In this document: positions 8,020 to 40,881 of the stretch, piece after piece | Position numbering within the stretch: the stretch's first letter is position 1 | Layout of the letters: each line of letters opens with the position of its first letter | IMG/VR virus record: IMGVR_UViG_3300021964_000158 | Coordinates: 1 to 41,593 of that record | DNA length: 41,593 bases | Reading direction: 5' to 3' (one strand) | Origin: a virus | Position numbers and translations under genes: made by a program | Notes under the pieces: model-generated | What the model was told of the DNA's origin: nothing | The model's input: the letters and a program-made list of their open reading frames with translations, nothing else | The model's database searches: none

Positions 8020-8261
8020 TTACATTTAAATACGAACCAGGTGAAGAACATAAACCACATACATCAGTTATGTGCGTAAATATGCATGTGGCTGATGGAG
8101 CATCCTTAGATGAAATGTGCCAAGCTTTTGAAGATTTTATAAAAGGAGTTGGTTACCAATTACCTAACGGGGTTCATATTGGGTATGAATATGAAGAAGA
8201 AAACACTATACATAATAGTGCTCAAACAGAGTTTAGTTTTATGACAAGAGGACAGGGTTAA
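8016..8261 (+). CDS. Conserved phage hypothetical
   Basis: An 81-residue protein with VADGASLDEMCQAFEDFIKGVGYQLP, a pattern I recall in small T4-like marine phage proteins of unknown role. Overlaps both neighbours by one to four bases. Confidence 0.65.
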   Translation: MITFKYEPGEEHKPHTSVMCVNMHVADGASLDEMCQAFEDFIKGVGYQLPNGVHIGYEYEEENTIHNSAQTEFSFMTRGQG

Positions 8262-8506
8262 TGCCAAAGAAAAAGAAACAACGGGAATCAAAAACTTCTG
8301 CAGGAATTGTGGGTTCACCTCGCAGTTCTAGGGATAAAACAGCACCTGAGTATAAACTTCTTCGTGCTATTCGTCAGCGTGAGGCATGGCAAGCTGGAAA
8401 GAATGTAGTTTTGACGATTGAAAATCCAGACAAGAATGCTACTAACATGCGCTATATCAAAATCAATGCTAGAGATTATTGGGGGAGCCCAAAGACAAAT
8501 GGTTGA
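8261..8506 (+). CDS. Small basic protein, possible nucleic-acid binder
   Basis: An 81-residue protein with a strongly basic N-terminus (MPKKKKQRESK) and further Arg/Lys throughout. The composition suggests nucleic-acid binding but no fold is recognised. It shares one base with the upstream stop (TAATG) and overlaps the glutaredoxin start. Confidence 0.6.
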   Translation: MPKKKKQRESKTSAGIVGSPRSSRDKTAPEYKLLRAIRQREAWQAGKNVVLTIENPDKNATNMRYIKINARDYWGSPKTNG

Positions 8507-14909: not shown

Positions 14910-15027
14910 TAAAGAAAAACTTAGAGTTCTTGAAGATGAGAACGGAAACCGCTATGCAAAACAATTTACAAAGGCTCAATTACAAGAGCATTTGGCAAAG
15001 AATCCGGGGCATACCGTTATTAGATAA
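14902..15027 (+). CDS. 41-residue hypothetical
   Basis: Short frame MADKEKLRVLEDENGNRYAK... ending at TAA that shares a base with the next ATG. It overlaps the AbrB-like gene by 8 bases. Tight packing supports it; function unknown. Confidence 0.55.
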   Translation: MADKEKLRVLEDENGNRYAKQFTKAQLQEHLAKNPGHTVIR

Positions 15028-16958
15028 TGCCTGTATTTTCGGTCCCATTCACATCTGTAAATCCCGCACAGGCTGAGCAATCGGATCCTTTTTATGCAGA
15101 CGGCGGACCGCCAACTGACGGTGAAGGACTACCTACACATTTTGCTCCTGTCTATAGTCTTGTTGAGGCAGGTATTGCAGGATATAGCTCCAATACAATA
15201 ACAAGTTGGTCGATTACTGCTGACTTTATTGTTGAAAGAGAAGAAGATAATGAAGAAGGTGTAACAGATACTTCAGAATATAATGTAGCAGCATTTGGTA
15301 TATCTGTCGATGGGAGTGCAACGCAATATTTAGTTAATAATGGCGATAGCGCTAACTTTTCTGTAGGTAATGGTGTCGTAAATATCGAACAAATTGATAG
15401 GCAACAAAATACAGCAGATGGATCTGCTTTTCAGAAGATTAGAATAACACCCGTATCAAGTCCTTTTAATAGCACCTGGTCATATTTGCAAAATTCAGCA
15501 TCTAATACAGCAGTAGAAGATACCGTAAGTTTATTTAGTAATTTCCCGGAAGCAAATACCTATGTTGGATTAACTGCATGGACAGAACCCAACCCAGACA
15601 CTTACAATGTTGAATATAGTTTTGAAATGCAATATGATGGTGTTGCTGAAACAATTAGTACCCTTTCAAATACTAATATTCTTGAGGCACCGGATCCAGA
15701 TCTTCTTGACTTTTTTGGCGATGGGATTGCAGCAAATGCTAATTCTTCTTCTTTTGCTATATTAGCACGTGGTTGGGACGCATCCGGCACCAGTAACGTA
15801 GGAGCTGTTTATTTTTATAACGATAGCGCCGAGCTTGTTGCTCAGTATACAGAAACAGAAGGAACATTTCCAACATCTCTTCGCATGGGTGGAGGTTTTA
15901 TCTTTTACGGATTACCGACATTTAATACTAATTCTGGATGCGTAAGGGTATTCGATTATAGTGGGAATCTATTAACTACTATAGAAAACCCAGATTTACC
16001 CGGTGTTAATGATAGATTTGGTGACAATATCACATTTGATGAAAATTCAAATTTATTACTTATAGCTAGTAGTGGTGATGATGATGGCGGTACTAACTTT
16101 GGATCTGTTTATGTATTTGAATACGATACAAATACAGTGAGCACATTTAATCAACTATTTAAAATAAATGCTCCTAATAGCAAAAGATATTGGGGATGGA
16201 ATCCAGGAGCTGATCCAATGGCCGTTGGAAGTGGAAGAATTGTTATAGGTCAACCTCGACATGATGTTGCTTTTGGTCCGAGTCGATCCGGTCAAGCGTT
16301 AGTTTATGACACGAATGGATCCTTGATAGCGACACTCCCACCTCCGAGCCCCTCTGGCACCGATTACCAATTTGGTTTATGCATAGCTATTGCAGGGAAC
16401 AAAATTTTTGTCGGTAGTAGAGGTAATGGTACTGTTCCCTCACAAATTTTTGTATATGATTTAAATGGAAATCTTGATTTTACTATAAGCCATCCTCAAT
16501 CCGGATCTTTAAGTACTAGTGGTACACTCGAGTTTGGTGCATCATTTGTAATAGGAAATGAAAGACTTATCGTGGGACATCGAAACGATTTTATAAATTC
16601 CGGTGTTACTAGCGCAGGAGCTATCTTTGTATACGACTTAGATGGAAATCTTCTAAACACAATCACAGAAGATTATAACGGTCCAGGTGCAGGCGATGAG
16701 TTAGGCGAAAGGGTCGGAATAACCAGTAATAAAATTCTCGGGTACCTCCCACTACCTGATGGTCCAAGCGGAACAGAAAGGCCCGGTTTAGTAGCATTAT
16801 ATGATTATCAAGGTAATGATATTAACATTGGAACTGAAGAAACCGTAATTACCGATGATACCTTCGTCAAAACTATAAATATCGAAAAGAACTATTATTT
16901 CCAGTATACACCATATATTTCAGCAGTACCTGCTGTTGTCGAACAAGGACAAAGATAA
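15027..16958 (+). CDS. Beta-propeller-like (FG-GAP-type) putative virion protein
   Basis: A 643-residue protein without signal peptide. The first 210 residues are beta-rich with low charge. Residues about 220-600 contain repeated blade-like units such as GAVYFYNDSAELV, GCVRVFDYSGNLL, GSVYVFEYDTN, GQALVYDTNGSLI, SQIFVYDLNGNL and GAIFVYDLDGNLL, each preceded by a 'GN-LIVG' strand. This spacing fits an FG-GAP/integrin-type propeller of about seven blades. The stop overlaps the PAAR gene (TAATG), so it is likely co-produced with the spike tip and may be a baseplate, fibre or receptor-binding component. That role is inferred from context. Confidence 0.75.
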   Translation: MPVFSVPFTSVNPAQAEQSDPFYADGGPPTDGEGLPTHFAPVYSLVEAGIAGYSSNTITSWSITADFIVEREEDNEEGVTDTSEYNVAAFGISVDGSATQYLVNNGDSANFSVGNGVVNIEQIDRQQNTADGSAFQKIRITPVSSPFNSTWSYLQNSASNTAVEDTVSLFSNFPEANTYVGLTAWTEPNPDTYNVEYSFEMQYDGVAETISTLSNTNILEAPDPDLLDFFGDGIAANANSSSFAILARGWDASGTSNVGAVYFYNDSAELVAQYTETEGTFPTSLRMGGGFIFYGLPTFNTNSGCVRVFDYSGNLLTTIENPDLPGVNDRFGDNITFDENSNLLLIASSGDDDGGTNFGSVYVFEYDTNTVSTFNQLFKINAPNSKRYWGWNPGADPMAVGSGRIVIGQPRHDVAFGPSRSGQALVYDTNGSLIATLPPPSPSGTDYQFGLCIAIAGNKIFVGSRGNGTVPSQIFVYDLNGNLDFTISHPQSGSLSTSGTLEFGASFVIGNERLIVGHRNDFINSGVTSAGAIFVYDLDGNLLNTITEDYNGPGAGDELGERVGITSNKILGYLPLPDGPSGTERPGLVALYDYQGNDINIGTEETVITDDTFVKTINIEKNYYFQYTPYISAVPAVVEQGQR

Positions 16959-25024: not shown

Positions 25025-25052
25025 TTGACAGATGCTGAAAAAGCACTATAAT
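25025..25052 (+). promoter_or_regulatory. Consensus promoter embedded in an inverted repeat
   Basis: TTGACA at 25025-25030, 16-bp spacer, perfect TATAAT at 25047-25052. GTGCTT (25021-25026) and AAGCAC (25041-25046) form a 6-bp dyad spanning the -35 and spacer. It drives the AAA+ gene. Confidence 0.85.
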
Positions 25053-25091
25053 GTAAGTATGAATTGTGAAAATCCTAACGGAGATTATATT

Positions 25092-26270
25092 ATGAAACTC
25101 AATGCTGACCAAAACGCTATCCTTTCTGCTCTTATGTCTAAGAAAGAAGGCGAGACAATTTTCTCATGGCGAGAAATCTTCGACACTGCAGTCGAAGTAG
25201 GTCTGACTGAAGGTAAGGCGTTTACCTTTGCTAACAAGTTCCCAAAGGTAAAGCGTGGTGTGTACAACTTGCAACCTGCTGTTAATCCGGGCGCTAATGT
25301 GGTAGAGATGCCTCAGCGTGCGGTTGCTCCTGCATCACCTGCACCAGTGGTAGGTAAGGTTCAGAGCACCTCGTCTGATGAGGTCTATGTGCCCGAGAAG
25401 GCGGATACTTTCGTTGCTTGGGGTAACTTTACTGACCTCAAGAAGATCGTTGCTTCTCAGATGTTCTATCCTACTTACATTGCCGGCCTGTCTGGTAACG
25501 GTAAGACCTTCATGGTCGAGCAGGTTTGCGCTCAAGCAAAGCGTGAGTTCGTCCGTGTTCAGATCACTCCAGAAACTGATGAGGATGATTTGATTGGTGG
25601 TTTCCGTCTGCTGAATGGTGAGACAGTTTTCGCTAAAGGCCCAGTCATCAAAGCGATGGAAGCTGGTGCGATTCTTCTCATTGATGAGATTGACCGTGGT
25701 TCAAACAAACTAATGTGTTTGCAAGGTGTGCTTGAAGGCAAGCCAGTCCTCATCAAGAAGACAGGCGAGGTAGTAAAACCTGCTCCTGGTTTCAATGTGA
25801 TTGCTACGGCAAACACAAAAGGTAAAGGCGATGAGGCAGGTCGTTTCATCTCGGCTACCATCATTGATGAGGCCTTCCTCGAGCGTTTCACAATTACTAT
25901 GGAGCAGCCATATCCTACGGCAGCAACCGAGAAGAAGATCATTGTGAACCACATGTCTGAGTTCAATTGCATCAATGAGGAGTTTGCAGAGACTCTTATC
26001 AAGTGGTCTGTTGCAATCCGTAAGACATTCGAAGACGGTGGTGTTGATGAGATTGTTTCTACTCGCCGCCTGTGTCACATTGTCCAGACATTCGGCATCT
26101 TCAACAATCAGCGTAAAGCGGTTGAGATGTGTGTGAACCGCTTCGATAGCGATACCAAGGTTGCCTTCCTCGACTTGTTTGACAAGATCGCTGGTGGCGA
26201 GGACTTGAACCTGGTTGACTCTGCTAACACTGTCAGTACTGCGGAATCGGTAGATAATGTTCCTTTCTAA
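25092..26270 (+). CDS. CobS/MoxR-like AAA+ ATPase
   Basis: A 392-residue protein; ATG 25092 (ACGGAG upstream) is correct because the transcript starts near 25059. The first 90 residues form a separate domain joined by an Ala/Pro linker (APASPAPV). The AAA+ core has Walker A AGLSGNGKTFMVEQ (Lys138), Walker B AILLIDEIDRG, and sensor 1 NVIATANTKGKG, followed by the CobS-type RFTITMEQPYP and a helical lid with STRRLCHI. CobS/MoxR ATPases act with vWA partners as chelatases or chaperones. The phage pair may remodel a protein; cobalamin synthesis is unlikely because no other cob gene is present in this window. Confidence 0.9.
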   Translation: MKLNADQNAILSALMSKKEGETIFSWREIFDTAVEVGLTEGKAFTFANKFPKVKRGVYNLQPAVNPGANVVEMPQRAVAPASPAPVVGKVQSTSSDEVYVPEKADTFVAWGNFTDLKKIVASQMFYPTYIAGLSGNGKTFMVEQVCAQAKREFVRVQITPETDEDDLIGGFRLLNGETVFAKGPVIKAMEAGAILLIDEIDRGSNKLMCLQGVLEGKPVLIKKTGEVVKPAPGFNVIATANTKGKGDEAGRFISATIIDEAFLERFTITMEQPYPTAATEKKIIVNHMSEFNCINEEFAETLIKWSVAIRKTFEDGGVDEIVSTRRLCHIVQTFGIFNNQRKAVEMCVNRFDSDTKVAFLDLFDKIAGGEDLNLVDSANTVSTAESVDNVPF

Positions 26271-29527: not shown

Positions 29528-29851
29528 TTATAATTGCAATTGATATCCCAATACCAAACCCATGCTATTGTTTTCCATTGCCGGCATTATAAAGAAATTA
29601 TTATGGTTTAATCTCGTCATCGGAATCACATCACTATTCGAATATCCTGTAACGAAACCAAACTCAACGGCTGTATTTTTACCTAACGATTTTTCTATTC
29701 CTGCATAAAGACTTAAATTCTTTTCACTGTTATAATATGCTCCTACTATGTAATTATCATATTTGAGTTTTGCATATGGATGAATTTCATTATATTCACC
29801 CTGTAACCCCAAATGAGTACTCAATGCTACCCCGTATAAAAATTCCATCAT
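29528..29851 (-). CDS. Small beta-barrel-like protein
   Basis: A 107-residue protein with alternating strands (KYDNYIVGAYYNSEKNLSLYAG, AVEFGFVTGY, MGLVLGYQLQL) like a small eight-strand barrel. No typical signal peptide: the N-terminus MMEFLYGVALSTHLG is only weakly hydrophobic. I recall similar proteins in cyanophages and other marine phages. The start overlaps the upstream stop by four bases. Confidence 0.65.
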   Translation of the reverse strand: MMEFLYGVALSTHLGLQGEYNEIHPYAKLKYDNYIVGAYYNSEKNLSLYAGIEKSLGKNTAVEFGFVTGYSNSDVIPMTRLNHNNFFIMPAMENNSMGLVLGYQLQL

Positions 29852-31473
29852 TGGTATTGCATTTCTACCATCTTTTCATGTAGAAGTTGTTGCGCTAAAC
29901 CATTACGAAGACCACGCTTAGATTCAGGTAGTTGTTCTGTGTTATACATTTGTGCGTCCGGATAGTAACCTCCGGTTAGTGAAACACCATAAGTATCGAA
30001 CCCCGGTGTATAATTTATAAGAGCGAGGACCTGGGCTTGCAATGCTTTTTGTGCTGCCATGTTTGCAGCACCGGCCATATCATTAGCAAGGTTCTTTGCT
30101 TTTTCGGCAACTAATTTTTTCATTTTTTCTCTTTTTGAGTCTTTTGCGTCAGCATCATTCCCAGACGACTGTTCGGATTCAGATCCCCCTTCGCCACCAT
30201 CTTCGGAACTATTAGAGGTTGATTCCTGTCGTCCGTCTTCATTATCGTCCCCTCCTGAACCCATTGCGAGCTCCACATCACTACTGGACTCGGTTTCTTC
30301 TGTATCATCATTAGCACTTTCCGTCTGCGTTGTTTCTACTATTTCCTGTACAGGTTCACTTACAGTCACTGTGACTGTAGGAGTTGTTTCCTGTAAGATT
30401 TCATTCACAATTGGATCATCAACTAATTTAGGTTGTGTTAATTCAGCAACAGGATCTGACACTGTTACCGTTGGTGTGGTTGTTTCTGCATGATGACTTT
30501 CATCTTCAGTTGCTGTGGTATCGGGTATCAAACTTAATACATATTCTTCATATCCAGGACAACCCGGGTCATACAATGTGTCTAACGAACACTGCTGTGC
30601 AAAATACGCTTCTGCATAACCTGGGCATGTTGTATCATAAAAAGGATCTAAAGAACACTGTTGGTCAAAATATGCCTGAGCATATCCTGGGCAACCGCTA
30701 TCATATAATGCATCTATTGAACATTGTTGATTGTAATATGCTGTCTGGTATCCGGGACACCCAGAATCGTATAAAGGATTAGCAGCGCAGTTTAATTCAT
30801 ATTGTTGTTGAGCATACGCCTCTGCATATCCTTCACAAGATGGGTCATATAGCGGATTACTATAACATTGGTCAACAGAATAAATCAATTGAAAAGATGA
30901 ATTACCAACATCGAATTCTGGGCCATAATAACCTGCCCAAAATCCAATATCATCACCTTCTGCTCTAATGATAATTTTGTCTACATTGCTTCCTGGAATT
31001 TGTTTGTTAAATAACTCAGTCCCGCTAAAAGTTGTCCAACTGTAGTGCCCATCATAGTTATGCTGTTTTCCCCATACTTCATTTCCGTTTGCATCATACA
31101 ATCTAACTGAGATTCGCATATAATCATCACCGTCATTTTGTTCAGAATTGGTATCAAAGTTCTTGAGACGCCAACTATACCTGTACCCATCGAGATTGAT
31201 GCCTGCATTTCTTAATGCTTGCTCTAATGCAATCTGCCATCTAAGAACGCCTCCGCCATATCCCCAGTATGCTGTATCACCGTCCCAATTAGGAATATTG
31301 CCGCCACTGTAACCGTTCCAGCAGTCTACACCTGGCGTACAGTTGTTATAGCTTCCTTCAATATCTGATGGGTTGAGTAGATTGCTTGTCTCGTCTGCTC
31401 GTGCTTTATTATAAAAGCAAAAGCAAAAGGCCAAGACCACCAATACCCATAACAGCACCTTTGAGCTTGTCAT
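29848..31473 (-). CDS. Secreted Cys-repeat protein with carbohydrate-binding-like domain
   Basis: A 541-residue protein with a Sec signal peptide (VLLWVLVVLAFCFCFYNKARA, cleavage near residue 26). Residues 30-200 are beta-rich and aromatic (YSWRLKNFDTNSEQND, VRLYDANGNEVWGKQ), like a jelly-roll or lectin fold. Residues 203-313 hold five tandem units of about 22-26 residues, each with C-x8/9-C and the core LYDxxCPGYxxAY. Residues 320-450 are a Ser/Glu/Thr-rich linker. The C-terminus is a basic then amphipathic helix. It starts inside the upstream gene (65-base overlap). The role is unknown; surface exposure or a virion appendage are possibilities. Confidence 0.75.
   Translation of the reverse strand: MTSSKVLLWVLVVLAFCFCFYNKARADETSNLLNPSDIEGSYNNCTPGVDCWNGYSGGNIPNWDGDTAYWGYGGGVLRWQIALEQALRNAGINLDGYRYSWRLKNFDTNSEQNDGDDYMRISVRLYDANGNEVWGKQHNYDGHYSWTTFSGTELFNKQIPGSNVDKIIIRAEGDDIGFWAGYYGPEFDVGNSSFQLIYSVDQCYSNPLYDPSCEGYAEAYAQQQYELNCAANPLYDSGCPGYQTAYYNQQCSIDALYDSGCPGYAQAYFDQQCSLDPFYDTTCPGYAEAYFAQQCSLDTLYDPGCPGYEEYVLSLIPDTTATEDESHHAETTTPTVTVSDPVAELTQPKLVDDPIVNEILQETTPTVTVTVSEPVQEIVETTQTESANDDTEETESSSDVELAMGSGGDDNEDGRQESTSNSSEDGGEGGSESEQSSGNDADAKDSKREKMKKLVAEKAKNLANDMAGAANMAAQKALQAQVLALINYTPGFDTYGVSLTGGYYPDAQMYNTEQLPESKRGLRNGLAQQLLHEKMVEMQYQ
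30535..30867 (-). repeat. Five tandem Cys-containing coding repeats
   Basis: Coding repeats within the secreted protein with period 66-78 bases. The conserved protein core is QQC..D.LYD..CPGY..AY. Cys residues are spaced 10, 16, 10, 12, 10, 12, 10, 12 and 10 apart, which suggests one disulphide per unit. Confidence 0.85.
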
Positions 31474-32112: not shown

Positions 32113-32736
32113 ATGTCTAAATTATTGCAACTTTCATGCAACATTATGACAGGATTTTGTGTATTAGGTATTGCTTATCTATTTTACGTATTACCTGCTG
32201 AACCTGAAAATAATACTACAACTATTCCTATATCTGAAATCAAAGTAAAAACTTTAAAACCAATTGAACCGGAGCCTATTATTGTTAATCGGTTTTCCAG
32301 AGAAGAACTTGAGTGTTTAGCACTAAATATTTACCATGAAGCCCGTAATGAATCCCAATTAGGACAAGAAGCGGTTGCGTGGGTAACTCTTAATCGCCTT
32401 AACCATGAAGATTATCCGGACACTATTTGTGGTGTTGTGAAACAAGCGAAGTATTCTAAATGGTGGAAAGAGGTAAAAGGGAAGGATGTTCCCCTTAGGA
32501 ATAAATGTCATTTCTCGTGGTATTGTGACGGAAAAAGTGACACCCCTCGAGAGCAAATGCAATGGGAGATGGCACAAAGTATTGCTTTCTATATCACAAC
32601 GATTTATGGTACATCAAAAGATCCCACAAAAGGTTCAATTATGTACCATGCCAATTATGTTAATCCGTATTGGGCCGCCCATTATGAAAAATTAGCGAAT
32701 ATCGGTACGCATATCTTTTACGGAGAAAGTATATAA
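32113..32736 (+). CDS. SleB-type cell-wall hydrolase, putative endolysin
   Basis: A 207-residue protein of the cell wall hydrolase SleB family (PF07486), which cleaves peptidoglycan glycan strands. Residues 10-28 form a signal anchor (IMTGFCVLGIAYLFYVL). The domain has LECLALNIYHEARNESQLGQEAVAWVTLNR near residue 74 with the catalytic Glu in HEAR, then CHFSWYCDG and KGSIMYHANYVNP...IGTHIFYG. The N-terminal anchor would let it reach the periplasm through Sec, like a signal-arrest-release endolysin. It is read from an early-type promoter, which is odd for a lysis enzyme, although late read-through is possible. Confidence 0.87.
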   Translation: MSKLLQLSCNIMTGFCVLGIAYLFYVLPAEPENNTTTIPISEIKVKTLKPIEPEPIIVNRFSREELECLALNIYHEARNESQLGQEAVAWVTLNRLNHEDYPDTICGVVKQAKYSKWWKEVKGKDVPLRNKCHFSWYCDGKSDTPREQMQWEMAQSIAFYITTIYGTSKDPTKGSIMYHANYVNPYWAAHYEKLANIGTHIFYGESI

Positions 32737-32739
32737 ATA
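32732..32739 (+). promoter_or_regulatory. T4-type late promoter for the APS kinase-to-bilin operon
   Basis: Exact TATAAATA overlapping the stop of the SleB gene, 33 bases before the kinase ATG. It is the only promoter I see ahead of the run of coupled genes from 32772 to 35723. Confidence 0.65.
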
Positions 32740-32771
32740 AAAATATGTTCAACTTATAATATGGAGTGATT

Positions 32772-33206
32772 ATGAAGATTTTGATCTTTGGTCTCCCTGG
32801 TTCTGGCAAATCAACTTTGGCGGAACCTTTTTCAAAATTAATTGGAGGCGTTTGGATTAACGCTGACCAAATTAGAGAAAGATATAACGACTGGGACTTT
32901 ACTCCTGAAGGTCGTATTAGACAAGCCCAACGTATGAAACATCTAGCGGATGGCGTTGTGATGGCAGGTAAAATTGCTGTTGCAGATTTCGTATGTCCAA
33001 CTGAACAAGCACGGGCTGAATTTGATCCAGATTTTACTGTCTGGATGAATACCATCGATGAAGGTCGGTTTGAGGATACAAATAAAATGTTTGTACCTCC
33101 TCAGAAGGTTGACTATAAAGTCGAAGGCTGGTTTGACGATACCCACGAACAACTTGTCAATGTCATTAGTAAATATATGAAACGAAATACCGATGGAGAA
33201 AGTTGA
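32772..33206 (+). CDS. cysC: Adenylylsulfate (APS) kinase-like protein
   Basis: A 144-residue P-loop kinase; ATG 32772 with ATGGAG upstream is preferred over an in-frame GTG at 32766. The P-loop is GLPGSGKS (residues 7-14). INADQIRERYNDWDFTPEGRIRQAQRMKHLAD matches the APS-kinase substrate region (D-x-x-R...F-S/T-x-x-x-R). The C-terminal part has DFTVWMNTIDEGRFEDTNKMFVPP, the family's 'TI..GR..DTN..F..P' block. It would phosphorylate APS to PAPS, the sulfuryl donor for sulfotransferases. The chain is shorter than bacterial CysC (about 200 residues), so substrate should be tested. It overlaps the DUF2061 gene. Confidence 0.8.
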   Translation: MKILIFGLPGSGKSTLAEPFSKLIGGVWINADQIRERYNDWDFTPEGRIRQAQRMKHLADGVVMAGKIAVADFVCPTEQARAEFDPDFTVWMNTIDEGRFEDTNKMFVPPQKVDYKVEGWFDDTHEQLVNVISKYMKRNTDGES

Positions 33207-33408
33207 AAAGAAAAGGCATCTCGCTAAGGCCGTAACTTGGCGTATTATCGCATCAGTGACAACTGCATTAATTGCTTGGTATTTTGGATTACCTCCTAAA
33301 GCAGTTGGGTTTGTATTTGTTGCTGATTTAATAATTAAATTTGTATTATACTATGCACATGAAAGGGTATGGTATAGACATATAAAATTTGGATTAAGCA
33401 AGGAATGA
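33193..33408 (+). CDS. DUF2061 small membrane protein
   Basis: A 71-residue protein of the DUF2061 family: KRHLAKAVTWRIIASVTTALIAWYFG followed by a second hydrophobic helix (AVGFVFVADLIIKFVLYYAHERVWYRH). Two membrane helices are predicted. Function is unknown. I recall DUF2061 genes near sulfate-activation genes in bacteria, which agrees with the APS kinase immediately upstream (14-base overlap). Confidence 0.83.
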   Translation: MEKVEKKRHLAKAVTWRIIASVTTALIAWYFGLPPKAVGFVFVADLIIKFVLYYAHERVWYRHIKFGLSKE

Positions 33409-33412
33409 GGAA

Positions 33413-33883
33413 ATGTTTTCATTTGATGTAGAAAGCATCACTAAAGGCATTGGAGTAGTTACAGCGACATTTGCGTTGATTGGTGGTGGTTATACCCTAT
33501 ATGATAAACTAGGAATTGAAGATCCTATTTTGAAATGGGCACCGGAATATTTTTCGGTGACAGATGGTGAAACAGATGATGATTTTAAAGTTGTAGTTGC
33601 CCGTGAAAAGTTAAGGGACGATTGCAAAGTTGTTGATTTTAGATTAGAGGTTAGAGATAGTGAGTTTGTAGTGCATAATGCAATACCTAGTATCACTAAA
33701 TTTTCAGGCCCGGCAAACGATAAAATAGATAAATTTGCATATTATTTTAATATTGAAAATGATGAAGATGTTGAAATAGGCGAAGCAACTCTATTAGCTC
33801 ATATTGATTATGAGTGCCCGGAAGGACCAGTAATTGTTAACTATCCGGACCACGAAAATCTAAGATTTATGATTACGAACTAA
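33413..33883 (+). CDS. Membrane-anchored hypothetical
   Basis: A 156-residue protein with a hydrophobic N-terminal segment (IGVVTATFALIGGGYTLY) and a beta-rich soluble domain containing two Cys. A similar 'membrane helix plus beta domain' architecture is common in marine phage genomes. Function unknown. It lies 4 bases after the DUF2061 stop. Confidence 0.65.
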   Translation: MFSFDVESITKGIGVVTATFALIGGGYTLYDKLGIEDPILKWAPEYFSVTDGETDDDFKVVVAREKLRDDCKVVDFRLEVRDSEFVVHNAIPSITKFSGPANDKIDKFAYYFNIENDEDVEIGEATLLAHIDYECPEGPVIVNYPDHENLRFMITN

Positions 33884-33895
33884 AGGAGATAATAT

Positions 33896-34297
33896 ATGTT
33901 TGATTGGAAAAAACCAACGGTGCAGATGTTGGGTAGGTGGCAACCTTGGCACGAAGGACACCGTGAATTGTTTAAACGTTGCCATGCAAAGACAGGCCAA
34001 GTTGTTATCATGTGTCGGCAAGTTCCAGAAGATACAGAAGCAAATGAATTGGTGCCCGGTCAAGATGATAACCCATTTGGTTTTCAAGAAGTGTTTAAGC
34101 GTATCGCTCTTGATTTGAAACAAGAAGGTTATGAACTTAACGTAGATTTTGTTATTCAAAAGGTTCCCAATATTGTAGATATTTCTTATGGTCGTGGAGT
34201 AGGTTATACCTTTACAGAGCATGACTTGGGCAAGGAAATGCATGATATCTCGGCAACAAAAATTAGAGCTCAAATGCGTGAGGATGGAGATTTATAA
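33896..34297 (+). CDS. HxGH nucleotidyltransferase (cytidylyltransferase-like)
   Basis: A 133-residue Rossmann-type nucleotidyltransferase. MLGRWQPWHEGHRELFKRC carries the HxGH ATP-binding motif (HEGH), and EMHDISATKIRAQMRE carries the ISxTxxR motif. The best guess is an adenylyl- or cytidylyltransferase. Candidates include NadM-like, a CTP-dependent lipid/sugar enzyme, or an ATP-sulfurylase-like step before the APS kinase; ATP sulfurylase shares this fold and the HxGH motif, but this protein is far shorter. A GGAGATAA site precedes it, and it shares a base with hemO (TAATG). Confidence 0.78.
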   Translation: MFDWKKPTVQMLGRWQPWHEGHRELFKRCHAKTGQVVIMCRQVPEDTEANELVPGQDDNPFGFQEVFKRIALDLKQEGYELNVDFVIQKVPNIVDISYGRGVGYTFTEHDLGKEMHDISATKIRAQMREDGDL

Positions 34298-34821
34298 TGT
34301 CACTCAAAGAATTAACCTGGGAAAACCACAAAAAAGCAGAACGTAAAAAGTTTGCTTCTGTTTTAATGTCGGGTGATATTGAGCCTGAATTATATTTTAA
34401 ATATCTTACAAATCAATTTCTAATGTATTCTGTGCTAGAACAAAAAATTGATTTAGAATCTTTAGGACTCAATGACATTCGAAGATCCAGTTTAATTCTG
34501 CAAGACATGATGGAATTAGGATTCCATACAGGTGATGTTAACAATTATTCACTCCCTGTGGCAAAAGATTATATTCAGTATATCAGCACAATGACTTCTG
34601 AACAATTAATACCTCATATGTACGTAAGACACTTTGGCGATATGTATGGCGGCGCAATGATTCAGAAAAAAGTTCCGGGTTCTGGCTCAATGTATGAGTT
34701 TGAGAATAAGGAAGAATTAAAAGAAAAAGTGAGAGCGCTTTTAACCGATGATATGGCAGATGAGGCAAACAAATGCTTTGAGTATGCTATTCGATTATTT
34801 GAGGAATTGATGGATGAGTAA
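34297..34821 (+). CDS. hemO: Heme oxygenase
   Basis: A 174-residue helical protein of the heme oxygenase family, which opens heme to biliverdin, CO and iron. The proximal ligand is expected to be His11 in LTWENHKKAER. The distal helix carries YVRHFGDMYGGAMIQKKVPGSG (GDMYGG at 114-119, equivalent to the GDLSGG of HO-1). It is shorter than cyanobacterial HO1 at both ends, as phage versions can be. It overlaps the bilin reductase gene by 8 bases, so the two are likely co-translated and act in sequence. Confidence 0.88.
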   Translation: MSLKELTWENHKKAERKKFASVLMSGDIEPELYFKYLTNQFLMYSVLEQKIDLESLGLNDIRRSSLILQDMMELGFHTGDVNNYSLPVAKDYIQYISTMTSEQLIPHMYVRHFGDMYGGAMIQKKVPGSGSMYEFENKEELKEKVRALLTDDMADEANKCFEYAIRLFEELMDE

Positions 34822-35509
34822 AATTTGGGATGCATTGATTGATTTAAAGGAGCATTACATTGAAAACTTTGAAAGGCTTGCTAGTGAGTATGAAGAACCC
34901 GGGATGGGAGAGTTTAATCACGCTGACGGCGGCTGGGTTAACCGTACTTGGCGTAGTGACAACTTTAGGCGTGCTCATGTCGATGTTGTAGACGCTCGAG
35001 AATCGCATAAACTGTGGATGATGCATGTTTGTATCTTTCCTCATTATACCAACGATGGTCCTATTTACGGATTTGATGTTATCGCCGGTCCTAACAAGAT
35101 GACCGGAGCCTTCCACGATTTTTCTCCAACGATTGATGATGATAATCAACTTATAAGATGGTTTGCTGGTCGTACAGAAGAATTGAAATGGAATCGAGAA
35201 AGAGAACTACCTGACTGGGCAAAAGAAATCTTTTCAGATGGAATGATGGCTGCGGGTATGGTCAAAGAACAAGCAGAAATTGACCAAGTAGTTAACTTTG
35301 CAAAGCGTACCCTAAGACAGTATACGGATAAAATTGTGTTATACAACGGGCAGATTCAAAGAGAGATGGGCGCTGGAGCGCAGAATAGGTATGCACACTT
35401 CCAGAAACAAAACCCGCACACGCCTCGTGTAATGAAGTCTCTCGGGTTAGATCCGGATGCTGTTGATAAGTTCCAAGAAAAATGTTTGTTCCCAGAAGTG
35501 AAGTTTTGA
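34814..35509 (+). CDS. pcyX: Ferredoxin-dependent bilin reductase (PcyX/PebS-type)
   Basis: A 231-residue protein of the ferredoxin-dependent bilin reductase family. Diagnostic blocks are VCIFPHY, GPIYGFDVIAG with the catalytic-type Asp88, GAFHDFSPT (residues 98-106), RELPDWAKEIFS and QNPHTPRVMKSLGLD near residue 199. These enzymes reduce biliverdin to phycobilins such as phycoerythrobilin or phycocyanobilin. A hemO-pcyX pair from uncultured oceanic viruses of presumed non-cyanobacterial hosts has been described as making phycoerythrobilin, and this gene fits that group better than PcyA. The regiospecificity cannot be read with certainty. No ferredoxin gene is seen in this window. Confidence 0.85.
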   Translation: MSKIWDALIDLKEHYIENFERLASEYEEPGMGEFNHADGGWVNRTWRSDNFRRAHVDVVDARESHKLWMMHVCIFPHYTNDGPIYGFDVIAGPNKMTGAFHDFSPTIDDDNQLIRWFAGRTEELKWNRERELPDWAKEIFSDGMMAAGMVKEQAEIDQVVNFAKRTLRQYTDKIVLYNGQIQREMGAGAQNRYAHFQKQNPHTPRVMKSLGLDPDAVDKFQEKCLFPEVKF

Positions 35510-35510
35510 T

Positions 35511-35723
35511 ATGAATACAGGTTTTTATGGTGTGTTTAAGCAGAAGTATGATATACTTAAAAGAGATCTAGAAAAGGAACTCGAGCTTGCTAAAAGTGAC
35601 CGAAGAAAAGATTGGATGAAAAAGCACATCAAGCAGATGAAGGGTTTAAAAGATACTCTCAAAGAAATGGAAGATCATATGGGACATACCAAATGTCCTA
35701 ACTGCGGACACAAATTGCAATAA
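35511..35723 (+). CDS. Small coiled-coil protein with CPNCGH motif
   Basis: A 70-residue protein starting one base after the bilin reductase stop. A charged helix (YDILKRDLEKELELAK...) leads to a C-terminal CPNCGHKL, half of a zinc ribbon, so it may bind zinc as a dimer. Similar short proteins occur in other phages; function unknown. Confidence 0.68.
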   Translation: MNTGFYGVFKQKYDILKRDLEKELELAKSDRRKDWMKKHIKQMKGLKDTLKEMEDHMGHTKCPNCGHKLQ

Positions 35724-35742
35724 TAAACATTTAAAATAACGG

Positions 35743-35771
35743 TTGACAACTACCAAGCAATAAGTTACAAT
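35743..35771 (+). promoter_or_regulatory. Sigma70-like promoter
   Basis: AACGGTTGACA with -35 at 35743-35748, 17-bp spacer, TACAAT at 35766-35771. The predicted start (about 35778) coincides with the ATG of the next gene. Confidence 0.78.
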
Positions 35772-35776
35772 ATATT

Positions 35777-36076
35777 ATGAATGAATTGAACTACTTTGAA
35801 AAAACTTGGCAATGGATAAAAGATGACTGGCATTCCAATAAATTTAGATTTATTCTTGAACTTGTTGCTTGGGCTATTTCTATTGGGTGTAGCGTTACGA
35901 TGGCTCTTACCGTTCCTGAGCCGCCTCTTATGGTTTTGTATCCTGTATGGATCGCTGGGTGCGGCATTTACGCTTGGGCTAGTTGGACTCGCCGCTCTTT
36001 TGGGATGATAGCAAACTACTTACTCTTGGTCACCATCGACACAGTTGGATTAACAAGAATGTTAATTAATGGTTGA
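35777..36076 (+). CDS. Conserved phage membrane protein, possibly leaderless
   Basis: A 99-residue membrane protein. After a soluble N-terminus (YFEKTWQWIKDDWHSNKFRF) come three predicted helices (FILELVAWAISIGCSVTMALTV, LMVLYPVWIAGCGIYAWASW and MIANYLLLVTIDTVGLTRML). I recall close relatives in marine phages, without known function. The ATG sits about 6 bases after the promoter -10, so the mRNA may have almost no 5' leader. A downstream promoter for the tmRNA begins 3 bases before its stop ends. Confidence 0.72.
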   Translation: MNELNYFEKTWQWIKDDWHSNKFRFILELVAWAISIGCSVTMALTVPEPPLMVLYPVWIAGCGIYAWASWTRRSFGMIANYLLLVTIDTVGLTRMLING

Positions 36077-36106
36077 CAACATACACTTTTTATTGTATTA
36101 TAAATA
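36073..36106 (+). promoter_or_regulatory. Overlapping early-type and late-type promoters for tmRNA
   Basis: GGTTGACA with -35 at 36073-36078 and TATTAT at 36096-36101 (17-bp spacer), with an exact T4 late element TATAAATA at 36099-36106 overlapping the -10. The spacer holds the dyad ATACA/TGTAT. This would allow transcription of the tmRNA throughout infection. Confidence 0.68.
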
Positions 36107-36172
36107 AACATACATTGATGAAGCGATTTGACGCTATTCTGGACGGGGGTGCGATTCCCCCCACCTCCACCA

Positions 36173-36222
36173 TAAACACTCGTAGATGAGATATTGAATC
36201 ACTGCTTGCGAGTGTTTATGAT
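36173..36222 (+). other. Intervening segment excised from pre-tmRNA
   Basis: Lies between the encoded CCA end and the mature 5' GGGGGTG of the coding piece. TAAACACTCG and CGAGTGTTTA form a perfect 10-bp stem, which would bring the two mature ends together for host RNase processing. Confidence 0.8.
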
Positions 36223-36354
36223 GGGGGTGAACAGGTTCGACAGGATTGAAGAGAAGAGTGGAGATGTCCGGCGGAAGCTCGGTTAACGCAACAACCTAAA
36301 GTAAATGCAAACGATAGCAATTACGCACTTGCTGCCTGATTAAGGTAAGCGGGG

Positions 36355-36390
36355 TCTGGCCTACCTGGCAACAGAAACGGCCTTCTTTTT
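36355..36390 (+). terminator. Likely terminator of the tmRNA gene
   Basis: TGGCC ... CGGCC pairing followed by TTCTTTTTT at the end of the tmRNA coding piece. The stem is short, so part of the final tmRNA fold may also serve as terminator. Confidence 0.5.
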
Positions 36391-36404
36391 TATAAGGAGA
36401 TATT

Positions 36405-36629
36405 ATGACTGAAAAAGATAACGATATCATCATTTCTTTAGAAACAGATATTGAGTCGGTGTACGAAGTTAACTACCAACCTTTAGGCATTGATTCCTAC
36501 GGTGACGTAACTATTACTTTTGACGGTGAACCTATTGATTTGGATACTATCATTGTAGAACCCATTAAATACGATTTGCTATATGATGGATCTCAAGATT
36601 ACAATATAACTATTAATTATAAGGATTGA
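36405..36629 (+). CDS. Acidic hypothetical
   Basis: A 74-residue, very acidic, beta-rich protein with a strong AAGGAG ribosome site right after the tmRNA terminator. Alternating Asp/Ile strands; no family recognised. It heads the unit that leads to gp33, gp59 and gp32. Confidence 0.62.
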   Translation: MTEKDNDIIISLETDIESVYEVNYQPLGIDSYGDVTITFDGEPIDLDTIIVEPIKYDLLYDGSQDYNITINYKD

Positions 36630-36631
36630 TT

Positions 36632-36841
36632 ATGTCAACTATTGTTTCGACTTTTTTCAAAGAAGATGGTGAAGACGCAGGCTCTGCAGAGGTAGTCCTT
36701 GAAGGAGATGCGTACAAAATTAACTATTATGACACTCGTGGCGCATTGCACACTACCGAAGAATTCCCGGGTAAGGGTTTAAGATATGTAGAGGATGCTG
36801 CTGAGAACTGGGTTCAGGGCATAAAAGTCTTGAATGGTTGA
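36632..36841 (+). CDS. Conserved phage hypothetical
   Basis: A 69-residue protein (ATG 36632, AAGGATTG upstream). The block YYDTRGALHTTEEFPGKGLRYVEDAAENWVQGI is a pattern I recall in T4-like marine phages, usually next to gene 33. Function unknown. It overlaps the gp33 start by 8 bases. Confidence 0.7.
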   Translation: MSTIVSTFFKEDGEDAGSAEVVLEGDAYKINYYDTRGALHTTEEFPGKGLRYVEDAAENWVQGIKVLNG

Positions 36842-37067
36842 AGTGAAATTAGAGCTAAACTCAGAAAAAATCATGCAAGAAATAAATCACATGATTTTGC
36901 AAGGTGTTCCGTATATAGATGCTATCTGTGAATATGCAGAACAGAATGAATTAGAAATAGAGGTTTTGGGTGAGATAATTCGTAGGTCACCTATCCTCAA
37001 AGCAAAAATCTACGAAGAAGCAGAAGATTTAAATCTAGTTGAGAAGACGACAAGGTTGCCTATATAA
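36834..37067 (+). CDS. 33: gp33-like late-transcription coactivator
   Basis: A 77-residue helical protein matching the short gp33 of T4-superfamily phages: GVPYIDAICEYAEQNELEIEVLGEIIRRSPILKAKI. In T4, gp33 bridges the host RNA polymerase beta-flap and the gp45 sliding clamp and, with sigma gp55, activates late promoters. The order 33-59-32 agrees with T4 relatives. The TATAAATA promoters in this window are its expected targets. No gp55 gene is in the window. The stop shares a base with the gp59 start (TAATG). Confidence 0.8.
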   Translation: MVEVKLELNSEKIMQEINHMILQGVPYIDAICEYAEQNELEIEVLGEIIRRSPILKAKIYEEAEDLNLVEKTTRLPI

Positions 37068-37678
37068 TGAGCCTATATTCAGATAAAGAAGCATTTGAAC
37101 TTTATCAGTATTACATTGCATTAAAGCAACACTTCACAACTGATTACTACGATTTCTTTAAGTATCGTGGTAAGGTCAAACAAACTATGCAATCCTTCGA
37201 GACAAGGAAAGACAAGTTTACTTTTTATAAGTTGACCAAACGACCAGATGCAAAGAAATTAATTTTTGCTAATATGCTATTAAATCCTAAATCATATATT
37301 AGAGATATAGCAGAAAGCGAAAAGTGCGACCAAATCTATAAAGATTGGGCTGCACGCCAGCAACGACTTAAGTACACATTTAAGTCAGAGCTAAACGAAC
37401 TTGATGATGACTTTGACTCCGAGTTCAAAGTGTTCAATGGACAACATCCTCATGTTCTTAAACTCTATCTTCAAAAGAGGATAGGATTAGATACACTGGT
37501 TATCCTAGATGACCTTCTCGGGTGTTTCAAATATTGGGATAAAAAAATTAAAGATAACATCGTTTATCCGAATATAAATAATATGGTAAGCAAATATCGT
37601 CCCTTCATACACAAAGAAGGCTTTGATATTGAAAAATACAAAGAGATTTTGCTTGACAAATACGAAAATATACTGTAA
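37067..37678 (+). CDS. 59: gp59-like replicative helicase loader
   Basis: A 203-residue, mostly helical, basic protein with the T4 gp59 layout: SDKEAFELYQYYIALKQHF near the N-terminus, YYDFFKYRGKVKQ, RKDKFTFYKLTKR and LIFANMLLNPKSYIRDI, and a C-terminal YLQKRIGLDTLVILDDLL. gp59 loads helicase gp41 onto forks covered by gp32. The neighbouring gp32 gene is consistent with this. The last codons contain the gp32 promoter. Confidence 0.86.
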   Translation: MSLYSDKEAFELYQYYIALKQHFTTDYYDFFKYRGKVKQTMQSFETRKDKFTFYKLTKRPDAKKLIFANMLLNPKSYIRDIAESEKCDQIYKDWAARQQRLKYTFKSELNELDDDFDSEFKVFNGQHPHVLKLYLQKRIGLDTLVILDDLLGCFKYWDKKIKDNIVYPNINNMVSKYRPFIHKEGFDIEKYKEILLDKYENIL

Positions 37679-37713: not shown

Positions 37714-38658
37714 ATGACAACATCATTTTCAGCCCTCAAGAAGTCACGTTCATCTTCATTTGATAAGTTGAACCAGCAACTTCAAAAAATGAACACACAA
37801 GGTGGTTCAAATTCCGAACAAGACGATTACTGGAAACTCGAAGTCGATAAAGCAGGCAACGGCTATGCTGTTCTTCGATTCCTTCCTGCACCCAAAGGTG
37901 AGGATATGCCATTTGTAAGGCTATGGGACCACGGGTTCCAAGGCCCAGGTGGTTGGTATATCGAAAACTCACTGACTACAATCGGTCTTGATGATCCGGT
38001 TTCAGAATACAACGGCAAGTTGTGGAATTCTGGTGTTGAATCCGATAAGGATATTGCTCGTAAGCAAAAGCGCCGTCTTTCATACATTGCTAATGTATAT
38101 GTGGTCAAAGATCCTACTAATCCTCAGAACGAAGGCAAGGTCTTCAAGTACAAGTTTGGTAAGAAAATCTTTGACAAATTGAATGATGTTATGAATCCTC
38201 AGTTTGAAGATGAAGATCCTATCAACCCATTTGATTTCTGGGAAGGTGCGGACTTTAAACTTAAAGCACGTAATGTTGAGGGATATCGTAACTACGATAA
38301 GTCAGAATTTGCATCTGTAGGTCAATTGACTAATTCAGACGGTGAGCCTCTTTCTGACGATGAACTAGAGAGTGTTTGGGAAAAACAGCATTCTCTACAA
38401 GAGCTCGTTGATCCAAAAAATTTCAAGTCATATGATGAACTAAAGGCCAAGCTTTATAAGGTTCTCGCACTTGATGGCAGTGACCACGCACCCCAAAACA
38501 CTGCTGAGGACGATGAGGCGGAGATGAACTTTACACCAAAGTTTAAGTCGCAAGAAGCTCCAAAACAAGCGGAAGCGGCGTCTCCATTAGAATCTCGTTT
38601 TGCCGATGAGGGTGATGACGATACGCTAGAGATGTTTAAATCTCTTGCTAATGACTAA
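37714..38658 (+). CDS. 32: Single-stranded DNA-binding protein gp32
   Basis: A 314-residue T4 gp32 homologue. The N-terminus has the basic KKSRSSSFDKL region used for cooperative binding. The OB-fold core has YWKLEVDKAGNGYAVLRFLPAPKGEDMPFVRLWDHGF and GWYIENSLTTIGLDDPVSEYN, KQKRRLSYIANVYVVKDP and NPFDFWEGADFKLK. The C-terminus is acidic (DEGDDDTLEMF) and should recruit partner proteins such as gp59. The protein has no Cys, so the zinc site of T4 gp32 is absent, as in some marine relatives. AAGGAG precedes the ATG. Confidence 0.95.
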   Translation: MTTSFSALKKSRSSSFDKLNQQLQKMNTQGGSNSEQDDYWKLEVDKAGNGYAVLRFLPAPKGEDMPFVRLWDHGFQGPGGWYIENSLTTIGLDDPVSEYNGKLWNSGVESDKDIARKQKRRLSYIANVYVVKDPTNPQNEGKVFKYKFGKKIFDKLNDVMNPQFEDEDPINPFDFWEGADFKLKARNVEGYRNYDKSEFASVGQLTNSDGEPLSDDELESVWEKQHSLQELVDPKNFKSYDELKAKLYKVLALDGSDHAPQNTAEDDEAEMNFTPKFKSQEAPKQAEAASPLESRFADEGDDDTLEMFKSLAND

Positions 38659-38706: not shown

Positions 38707-40881
38707 TTATTTAGCGCCTGCTTGATGGGTTTGTAGAACGTTCTTTCCGAATGACAGTGCAGGCATGTCACGGTTCATGTAATAGTTATATGTGGGAGCG
38801 TTATTGTAAGAATCGCCGCCTTTAGCGTTAACGGCAACACTATCTCCGCCACCACCACCGGTACTTGCTAAATAAGATCTAATAGCTGCTGCTTGTGCGG
38901 GATCCATAACCATTGCAGATGGAACAGCACCTAATGTGACCCCGGTTCTGTTAGGTCCTATGCCTTGAGACATATTCATACCAGAGAGGATTTGCGATAC
39001 AAGATTAGATGCATCTCGTAATCCGTCAAGGTCTCCGGATTCGAGCATTTTTTGCAATCCGCCATCAGGTACAGTAGTTTCAGGTAATCCGTCAAAGTAT
39101 CCAGAACCGATAGTTCCACCTCTATACAAGACGCCTAATAAAGGAACTACACCAATCAAATTCTTAGCCATAGCAGAAAAATCAGATCCAATGTTTGATA
39201 CGTTTATGTTAGACATTGTTTGTAGTGCATTTGCCACATTTTGTAGTGCAGTACCCGCATCTGCTAATTGTTGTGTATCAACATCTTCAAGGCTATCCGT
39301 GATTTGTTTTAAAGGATCTTTTCCTGTATCACCCAATCCTAAGAATGCTAAGATAGCACTGCCTGCACCTGCTAGATTTGCCTTAAGTTGTTCTGTTGCA
39401 AATCCGGTTAAACCTTGAGCAATGTTTATCAATCCTGTCTTTAGTCCTGCAAAATTATCTCCAGGAACATTGATAGAGGTGACTTCATTAATGCCTGCAA
39501 CGGTATTACCCATGATAGTTTTGAAGCCTGTTCCATCGATACCTAAATAATTAGCACCTTCGAAGGCTGCATAAAATCCTGTAATAAAAGCACCTAATCC
39601 GAAACCTGCTAGACCCATTCCGGCAGCACCAAATGCTCCTAATGCTGGATTGACAGCAGTTGCAGCAGTAAACGTCCCTGCTAATGCTACTAACGCAATC
39701 TTTGTAGAGTCATTTAGGCCTTCAAGAGACTTTAATCCGTCCGCAAGGAATCCGGCTTGTTCTGCAAATTTTGATCCATCGAATCCACTAATATCTCCTG
39801 CAGCGGCAACACCAGCCATAAATCCGCCAATGCCCAAACCTGCAAGGCCCATACCTAAAGCAGCCTTACCTGCAATCTGAACAGAACCTGAAGCAACTAA
39901 TGTACTAGATCCCGCTATTAAAGCTAAAGCAGTAAGAGAACCTTCAGATAAAGTTTCTAATTCTTTTAAACCACCAACCATATTGGTGACTTGAGTTTTG
40001 AAGTTTTCGCCTGTGAATCCAGATGTGTCACCTGCAGCAGCAACACCAGCCATAAATCCACCAATACCTAAACCGGCAAGCGCCATTCCAACAGCAGCTT
40101 TGCCTGCAACTTTCATAGATACAGCACCAACTAAAGCGCCAGACCCAAGTAGTATCCCAAGCATTTTAATAGATTCTTCAGATAGGCTTCCAAACTCATT
40201 AAACCCAGCGACAAAGTTTGCTGACTGTTGTTGGAAGCTAGACAAATCTAAGTCTAAATATTCCATGCCTTCAGATGCGGCAGCAAGTCCTGCCATAAAT
40301 CCGCCTAGGCCTAAACCTACAGCAGCCATTCCGACAGGCGCTTTGACTAATCCTACAACACCAGAAAACTTAGATAATAATACGCCAGATGCGAGTAATC
40401 CACCCATAATAGCGATTGCTCGGTTGTCCATATTGGCAAATTCGTTCATTGCAAGAGCAATATTTTTGGCTTGAGTTGGTAAGTTTTCGCCTGTGAATCC
40501 TAAACTACCTACACCAGTGATAGCACCGATAAAACCTGCTAATCCCACACCGACTGCAGCAATACCTGCACCTAGGGCTAATCCTCCACGCAGACGCATA
40601 CCACCCCCACCGCCTGACTGTGCTGAAGTTGAGTCAGTTTGCGTTGTAGTGGGAGCGGTTGTTGGAGTTTCAAATTGTAAGCGAGCGTTCCGTGCTGCAT
40701 CAGCAGCGGCTTCCGTAGATTGTGCTAATATATCACGTAGAACGTCCGTTTGTACTTTGAGAGTGCTGTTGACATCCAAAGTTAGTTCTTTAAGCGACTT
40801 AATAGAGTTAGTTCCAGAATTTCTAGTTAACTGGCCTTCTTCTCTTAGTCGTTGTATTACGTCATCTAATTTGGCTGCCAT
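38707..40881 (-). CDS. Large Gly/Ala-rich repeat protein, putative tail/virion component
   Basis: A 724-residue protein. Residues 1-60 are a charged helix (LDDVIQRLREEGQLTR... LKELTLDVN). A Thr/Gly linker follows, then five repeats of about 80 residues (roughly residues 100-475). Each repeat has a Gly/Ala-rich hydrophobic block such as GMALAGLGIGGFMAGVAAAGD, followed by SGFxGENFKTQ and an amphipathic helix with LSEESIKMLGILLGSG. The C-terminal 250 residues are more polar and end in YNYYMNRDMPALSFG. The glycine-rich helices suggest membrane interaction or a tail-internal role such as tape measure or membrane-penetration. It lies downstream of the gp26-like gene in the structural operon; function is unproven. 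Confidence 0.7.
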   Translation of the reverse strand: MAAKLDDVIQRLREEGQLTRNSGTNSIKSLKELTLDVNSTLKVQTDVLRDILAQSTEAAADAARNARLQFETPTTAPTTTQTDSTSAQSGGGGGMRLRGGLALGAGIAAVGVGLAGFIGAITGVGSLGFTGENLPTQAKNIALAMNEFANMDNRAIAIMGGLLASGVLLSKFSGVVGLVKAPVGMAAVGLGLGGFMAGLAAASEGMEYLDLDLSSFQQQSANFVAGFNEFGSLSEESIKMLGILLGSGALVGAVSMKVAGKAAVGMALAGLGIGGFMAGVAAAGDTSGFTGENFKTQVTNMVGGLKELETLSEGSLTALALIAGSSTLVASGSVQIAGKAALGMGLAGLGIGGFMAGVAAAGDISGFDGSKFAEQAGFLADGLKSLEGLNDSTKIALVALAGTFTAATAVNPALGAFGAAGMGLAGFGLGAFITGFYAAFEGANYLGIDGTGFKTIMGNTVAGINEVTSINVPGDNFAGLKTGLINIAQGLTGFATEQLKANLAGAGSAILAFLGLGDTGKDPLKQITDSLEDVDTQQLADAGTALQNVANALQTMSNINVSNIGSDFSAMAKNLIGVVPLLGVLYRGGTIGSGYFDGLPETTVPDGGLQKMLESGDLDGLRDASNLVSQILSGMNMSQGIGPNRTGVTLGAVPSAMVMDPAQAAAIRSYLASTGGGGGDSVAVNAKGGDSYNNAPTYNYYMNRDMPALSFGKNVLQTHQAGAK
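39540..40590 (-). repeat. Five degenerate tandem coding repeats of about 240 bases
   Basis: Gly-rich blocks recur near 40500-40590, 40260-40345, 40020-40110, 39780-39880 and 39540-39620. Repeats 3 and 4 are very similar at DNA level, and a 20-base stretch near 40001 recurs near 40481, which indicates recent duplication or gene conversion. Confidence 0.8.

Follow-up and report, generated by a model that had tools for sequence, protein, structure and literature searches.

The ho1-pcyX locus and its two enzymes

The window analysed here is the whole 41,593-nucleotide stretch of IMG/VR record IMGVR_UViG_3300021964_000158. It carries a heme oxygenase gene followed by a gene for a ferredoxin-dependent bilin reductase (FDBR) of the PcyX type. 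An earlier note, made from the sequence alone, had described these two open reading frames and an overlap of 8 bases between them; we confirmed both the coordinates and the overlap (ATGAGTAA at 34814-34821). The features used below are the following.

25032-26270, + strand: CobS-like ATPase, phage-phylogeny marker (phrog_249, 1.7e-110)
32113-32736, + strand: cell-wall hydrolase (lysin-like), conserved upstream neighbour (PF07486, 1.8e-21; cluster in 29 loci)
32732-32739, + strand: T4-type late-promoter motif TATAAATA, at the end of the lysin gene
32766-33206, + strand: P-loop kinase (AAA_33/APS-kinase-like), first gene past the promoter motif (PF13671, 8.2e-8)
33896-34297, + strand: NMNAT-like, nucleotidyltransferase-like gene, 133 aa (PF01467, 22.5 bits for a cut-off of 21)
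34297-34821, + strand: heme oxygenase, 174 aa, HmuO/HO-1 fold (PF01126)
34814-35509, + strand: PcyX-type FDBR, 231 aa (PF05996)
35511-35723, + strand: CPNCG-knuckle protein, 70 aa (from the sequence; no Pfam match)
36080-36430, + strand: permuted (two-piece) tmRNA, predicted tag ANDSNYALAA (ARAGORN; RF04321, 6.1e-22)
36834-37067, + strand: gp33-like late-transcription coactivator (PF16805, 5.8e-10; phrog_25387, 1.1e-11)
37067-37678, + strand: gp59-like helicase loader (PF08993, 1.3e-9; phrog_269, 7.4e-46)
37714-38658, + strand: gp32 single-strand binding protein (PF08804, 5e-44)

The NMNAT-like gene and the start of the heme oxygenase share one base (TAATG), and the 70-aa gene starts one base past the pcyX stop. 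Because of these two junctions and the ATGAGTAA overlap, we regard the NMNAT-like gene, the heme oxygenase, pcyX and the 70-aa gene as one translationally coupled unit. The NMNAT-like gene, which adjoins the cassette in 12 related loci, likely shares an operon with the heme oxygenase, and its product may cooperate with the P-loop kinase in NAD or nucleotide metabolism. The NMN adenylyltransferase models of NCBIfam stayed below cut-off for this product. Separately, it matches the C-terminal part of phrog_10255 (kinase).

The synteny of the cassette is conserved across the uncultured clade to which the window belongs. The order is lysin, kinase and/or NMNAT-like gene, heme oxygenase, pcyX, optional genes, tmRNA, orf71, gp33, gp59 and gp32, the optional genes being transporter or porin-like. 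In one relative (L003, 10740-11699) a 319-aa PiT-like membrane protein directly follows pcyX (PHO4 below cut-off, E 0.0018), and its protein cluster is present in 16 related loci. Elsewhere in the window, the three long proteins encoded at 15027-16958, 29848-31473 and 38707-40881 (643, 541 and 724 aa) have no PHROG match; an FG-GAP repeat in the first is their sole feature.

The heme oxygenase scores above the gathering threshold of the Pfam Heme_oxygenase family (3.7e-14) and matches HO-2 and HmuO among PDB sequences. Its length lies at the short end of the range found in its relatives (174-208 aa). The AF2 model (pLDDT 92.6) has HmuO as top Foldseek hit (1wnv, E 1.2e-7, TMq 0.82). Proximal His11 is kept in 77 of 78 relatives, and the distal helix, which the earlier note had called intact, is indeed so: G114-D115-x-x-G118-G119 is kept in 77-78 of the 78. 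The protein thus has the proximal His, the distal GDxxGG helix and the all-helical fold of canonical heme oxygenases. No NCBIfam model reached its cut-off for either this protein or the reductase.

The reductase belongs to the Pfam family Fe_bilin_red (1.5e-19, above the gathering score). Its closest solved structure is that of PcyX_EBK42635 (PDB 5owg), aligned without gaps over 226 residues (E 8e-73, vs 8e-13 for PcyA), which is also the top Foldseek hit of its AF2 model (pLDDT 91.5; E 1.1e-15, TMt 0.91). In a 77-row tree, from which alphaproteobacterial PcyA and PebB were left out, it falls with 5owg and the reductase of phage Mosig in one clade (SH-aLRT 99), set apart from the PcyA, PebA and PebS of cyanobacteria and cyanophages. 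Alphaproteobacterial PcyA and PcyX are reported to form one 'AX' clade, the former as sister of PcyX (PMC10151467). Within the PcyX clade, 5owg and Mosig branch together, outside the subclade of the window. Alignment to PDB sequences, with PcyA numbering fixed by the E76Q entry 3i95, equates Glu76, His88 and Asp105 of PcyA with Asp57, His71 and Asp88 here; these residues are kept in 81-82 of 82 sequences. The blocks GFDVIAG, AFHDFSP and QNPHTPRV, described earlier as intact, are all present, and Asp88 and His202, which lie in such blocks, are conserved in 81/82 and 82/82 relatives. The phylogeny, the predicted fold and the catalytic Asp and His all speak for the assignment made in the earlier note. 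The reductase is PcyX by sequence, tree, active site and predicted fold.

We considered whether the enzyme could be a PcyA making phycocyanobilin, like that of the freshwater phage CB_2. PcyX arose from the PcyA lineage, and among NCBIfam models PcyA NF002760 comes closest, albeit with 80.7 bits, well below its cut-off of 206. Against this, the tree and the PDB match favour PcyX, and the position of PcyA Glu76 is occupied by Asp57 in the window and by Asp in 82/82 relatives. Asp55 has been described as the catalytic residue specific to PcyX, and the PcyA activity of CB_2 is ascribed to its absence (PMC11480375). A phycocyanobilin-forming PcyA is thus highly improbable. The predicted product is phycoerythrobilin, formed from biliverdin via 15,16-dihydrobiliverdin; FDBR product and phylogeny are only loosely correlated according to PMC13193486. 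The enzyme families support the earlier proposal that the pair would catalyse consecutive steps, from heme to biliverdin and on to a phycobilin.

Ocean viruses were already known to carry the heme oxygenase-PcyX pair, as the earlier note had pointed out. Ledermann et al. (2016, 2018) described ho1-pcyX cassettes from uncultured oceanic viruses (as cited in PMC7242693 and PMC13193486), and Wegner et al. (2024) reported marine hemO-pcyA/X(-alaS) contigs of probably pelagiphage origin (PMC11480375). We found relatives encoded on at least 233 IMG/VR stretches. A heme oxygenase match is present in 80 of 82 loci examined, the other two beginning less than 40 bases from pcyX. A DNA search with positions 33000-37000 returned no phage record nearly identical to the window.

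Compared with PcyX_EBK42635, the window has the same FDBR family, the same Asp in place of PcyA Glu76 and a heme oxygenase partner, but its reductase lies in another subclade and its locus runs lysin-cassette-tmRNA-gp33-gp59-gp32. Mosig (EXVC030M, MT647606, 39650-40886) is likewise T4-like, with overlapping heme oxygenase and PcyX genes and a permuted tmRNA (39% and 51% identity to the window for heme oxygenase and PcyX). However, its cassette lies beside neck genes, 2OG oxygenases and ferrochelatase, and Mosig is a SAR11 phage outside the CobS clade of the window. The hemO-pcyA/X-alaS cassettes encode the same two enzymes, and one member of the window's clade (L011) has AlaS, whereas no AlaS was seen in the window and the CB_2 enzyme makes phycocyanobilin (PMC11480375). 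With cyanophage pcyA and pebS the window shares a phage-borne FDBR, but at about 24% identity, in another clade and at another genome position.

Affiliation and host of the phage

The earlier note took the window to show the cassette in its full genomic context. This does not hold, since the record is a linear fragment of 41,593 bp and the isolated T4-like relatives measure 141-147 kb. T4-like genes were identified in the window with Pfam and PHROG: gp32, gp59, gp33, CobS, peptidase, PhoH and exonuclease. In the CobS tree, the window and nine pcyX-bearing records are split from six cyanophage-group records and two pelagiphages (100/100); as this tree is unrooted, it does not give which two of these groups are sisters. 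The gp32 tree, rooted on Straboviridae, joins the pelagiphages and two cyanophages (100/98) and leaves the window and its relatives outside this set, their own grouping being weak (55/74). The phage thus belongs to an uncultured marine T4-like clade beside the cyano- and pelagi-myoviruses. Judged by these markers, it appears to be neither a known cyanophage nor a known SAR11 phage: it groups neither with the SAR11 myophages (Mosig/HTVC008M), from which its CobS clade is separate (100/100), nor with the cyanophages (Kyanoviridae).

Could the phage nevertheless infect cyanobacteria, the cassette serving phycobilisomes? The best-scoring isolate relatives of its gp32 are cyanophages (about 55% identity), and two-piece tmRNAs of a cyanobacterial type are known (PMC9004378). 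The rest of the evidence runs the other way. CobS is split at 100/100 from all six sampled cyanophage-group records, and psbA/psbD (PF00124) was found in none of 30 pcyX-bearing records, in a search with Synechococcus elongatus as positive control and no cyanophage control. The tmRNAs of the relatives are of the alpha type, and no PcyX has reportedly been found in cyanophages (PMC13193486). A cyanobacterial host is therefore extremely improbable, in line with the earlier placement of the phage outside the cyanophages. The same note had stressed a phycobilin pathway outside cyanobacteria; this stands insofar as the phage is not a cyanophage, but the situation has precedents in the isolated SAR11 phage Mosig and in the contigs of PMC11480375.

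An alphaproteobacterial host had also been proposed. The permuted tmRNAs found at the same place in the relatives score best on the Rfam alpha_tmRNA model RF01849 (L003, 9.8e-35) and carry ANDNFA...ALAA-like tags, such as ANDNFASEDYAIAA. In contrast, the tmRNA of the window itself scores best on the beta model RF01850 (88.4 bits for a cut-off of 84). An alphaproteobacterial-type two-piece tmRNA is found in Melnitz, a phage of the OM43 clade (PMC9004378), and such a type is thus no proof of the host. The proposal is favoured by the relatives' tmRNAs and by the lack of psbA/psbD in the 30 records, but not by the window's own tmRNA. These sequence signatures lean towards an alphaproteobacterial host, and the host is probably non-photosynthetic.

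Late expression and possible benefit to the phage

The motif TATAAATA lies 1.56 kb upstream of the heme oxygenase, and all genes in between are co-directional. Its count over the whole window is not significant (7 vs 4 expected). At the lysin stop codon it is found in 23 of 29 loci, which are related to each other and thus not independent samples, compared with 3.9% in random windows of the same loci. In most relatives the motif coincides with the lysin codons Tyr-Lys-stop, and coding could account for it there. The lysins of the window, L002 and L003 have a longer end, and here the motif falls in another register, which favours a constraint at the DNA level. In L008, L010, L012 and L014, the heme oxygenase begins 31 bases past the lysin stop. 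The conserved position of the motif, together with the gp33 homologue, supports late expression. The unit containing the cassette is probably transcribed from the motif at 32732-32739 and likely to be expressed late, and the earlier suggestion of a late promoter ahead of the cassette fits the recurrence of TATAAATA at this border.

With enzyme families, catalytic residues, operon layout, conservation and motif position established from the sequence or the predicted structures, we are confident that the locus is an operon-borne ho1-pcyX cassette of a lytic T4-like phage. For activity, product, timing and electron donor, we infer the following scheme. In the late phase, transcription from TATAAATA with gp33 would read through the kinase, the NMNAT-like gene, the heme oxygenase and pcyX, with translational coupling of the final genes through TAATG and the 8 shared bases ATGAGTAA. 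Using host electrons, the heme oxygenase would open heme, giving biliverdin IXalpha, Fe2+ and CO. PcyX would then take four electrons from host ferredoxin and reduce biliverdin to 15,16-dihydrobiliverdin and further to phycoerythrobilin.

The gene content of related phages bears on this scheme. We searched 49-50 related records, with working controls among the named genomes; the largest measures 148 kb, and absences weigh little since most of these records are fragments. Plant-type (Fer2) ferredoxin and ferrochelatase were each found in none of 49 records, Mosig lying outside both searches; Mosig is annotated with a 2Fe-2S ferredoxin and has a ferrochelatase gene near its cassette. A cysteine motif scan of the window gave no plausible plant-type ferredoxin, its only match being a chance ORF on the minus strand. 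A host ferredoxin is thus the expected electron donor. Phycobiliprotein and phytochrome were found in none of 50 records. AlaS (5-aminolevulinate synthase) is encoded in 4 of 49 pcyX records at a strict cut-off, one of them L011, where it lies at about 7185-8348, some 1 kb ahead of the two cassette genes.

How phycoerythrobilin would benefit a phage whose host is not photosynthetic has been a question since ho1-pcyX was first described. The late-promoter position, the fixed synteny, the absence of biliproteins and of plant-type ferredoxin, and the AlaS variants narrow the possible answers. Light harvesting fits badly because neither biliproteins nor cyanobacterial signs are present. Our first choice is late heme turnover, in which the reductase would clear the inhibitory or oxidising biliverdin, yielding a soluble reduced bilin, and iron would be freed as a linked gain; we give it close to an even chance. 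AlaS or ferrochelatase encoded with the cassette counts against it, since little net iron would then be gained and the bilin (or CO) would be the wanted product.

Iron supply as the purpose in itself, with the reductase merely clearing biliverdin, has already been proposed (PMC11480375). It would suit the iron needs of phages (Fe-dependent oxygenases, ribonucleotide reductase, tail-protein iron) and the late-expression signal at TATAAATA; a 2OG-Fe(II) oxygenase is indeed encoded in the window, and many are in Mosig and HTVC008M. Since some relatives have AlaS or ferrochelatase with the cassette, which would undo the iron gain, we consider it rather unlikely. The same genes favour the bilin as product and hence our second choice, in which phycoerythrobilin or dihydrobiliverdin would bind to a host protein (bacteriophytochrome, BBAG globin) and change signalling during infection. 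The PcyA of phage CB_2 is able to provide phytochrome with a functional chromophore, and bilin-binding globins occur in heterotrophs (PMC11480375, PMC10151467). The lack of phycobiliprotein and phytochrome in the 50 related records speaks against such a role, and late expression would leave little time for signalling. Phycoerythrobilin, moreover, is not known to be photoactive in phytochromes. Altogether, we consider a chromophore or signal role rather unlikely too.

The main interest of the locus, the pair itself being known, lies in its conserved place behind a late-type promoter in a phage of a probably non-photosynthetic host. Added here are the clade placement, the locus synteny, the position of the late motif, the gene absences, the AlaS variants and the alpha-type tmRNAs of the relatives. 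As a conjecture, which we hold to be possible but doubtful, a clade of non-SAR11 heterotroph phages may break down heme and form phycoerythrobilin late, after the lysin, in the service of virion maturation or lysis. The bilin would then matter through iron, redox or heme clearance, and not through light harvesting or early metabolism.

Exchange between phages and matches in bacterial genomes

Both genes are under purifying selection, judging from substitution ratios. For pcyX, the comparison with L002 gives a dN of 0.023 and a dS of 0.18, other close pairs having dN/dS of about 0.04-0.21; close pairs of heme oxygenases give 0.09-0.20. The window and L002 are otherwise syntenic, yet their pcyX products are 95% identical and their heme oxygenases 67%, and DNA identity rises abruptly at the gene border (34821), from about 75% to 97%. 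Since synonymous divergence is 0.18 in pcyX vs 2.2 in the heme oxygenase, this contrast is due to recombination near the border rather than to faster evolution. L071 and L073 differ similarly (pcyX 98%, heme oxygenase 64%). It looks, from these sequences, as if the heme oxygenase partner had been exchanged between phages.

PcyX has been reported as not found in bacteria (PMC11480375). We obtained five matches in bacterial genomes: three on short MAG contigs, one on a 335-kb MAG contig and one in Shewanella. None was retained as a bacterial gene, since those on the short contigs fall among viral sequences in the tree and the other two are phage-like or broken. The 335-kb contig (L090, Neomarinimicrobiota) encodes a heme oxygenase, a carbon-nitrogen-hydrolase-like gene and PcyX among phage-like neighbours (GuaC-like, Hsp20, ClpS-like), and may be a jumbo phage that was binned with a bacterium. 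Among 130 genomes of its genus, Shewanella surugensis DSM 17177 alone gave a match above cut-off. Its heme oxygenase looks intact, and the pcyX behind it is cut off after about 74 N-terminal residues (L092, 5453-6222). A second, diverged reductase frame lacks the equivalent of Asp57 (L094, 1405-2175). Both copies have the appearance of genes in decay and may stem from phages.
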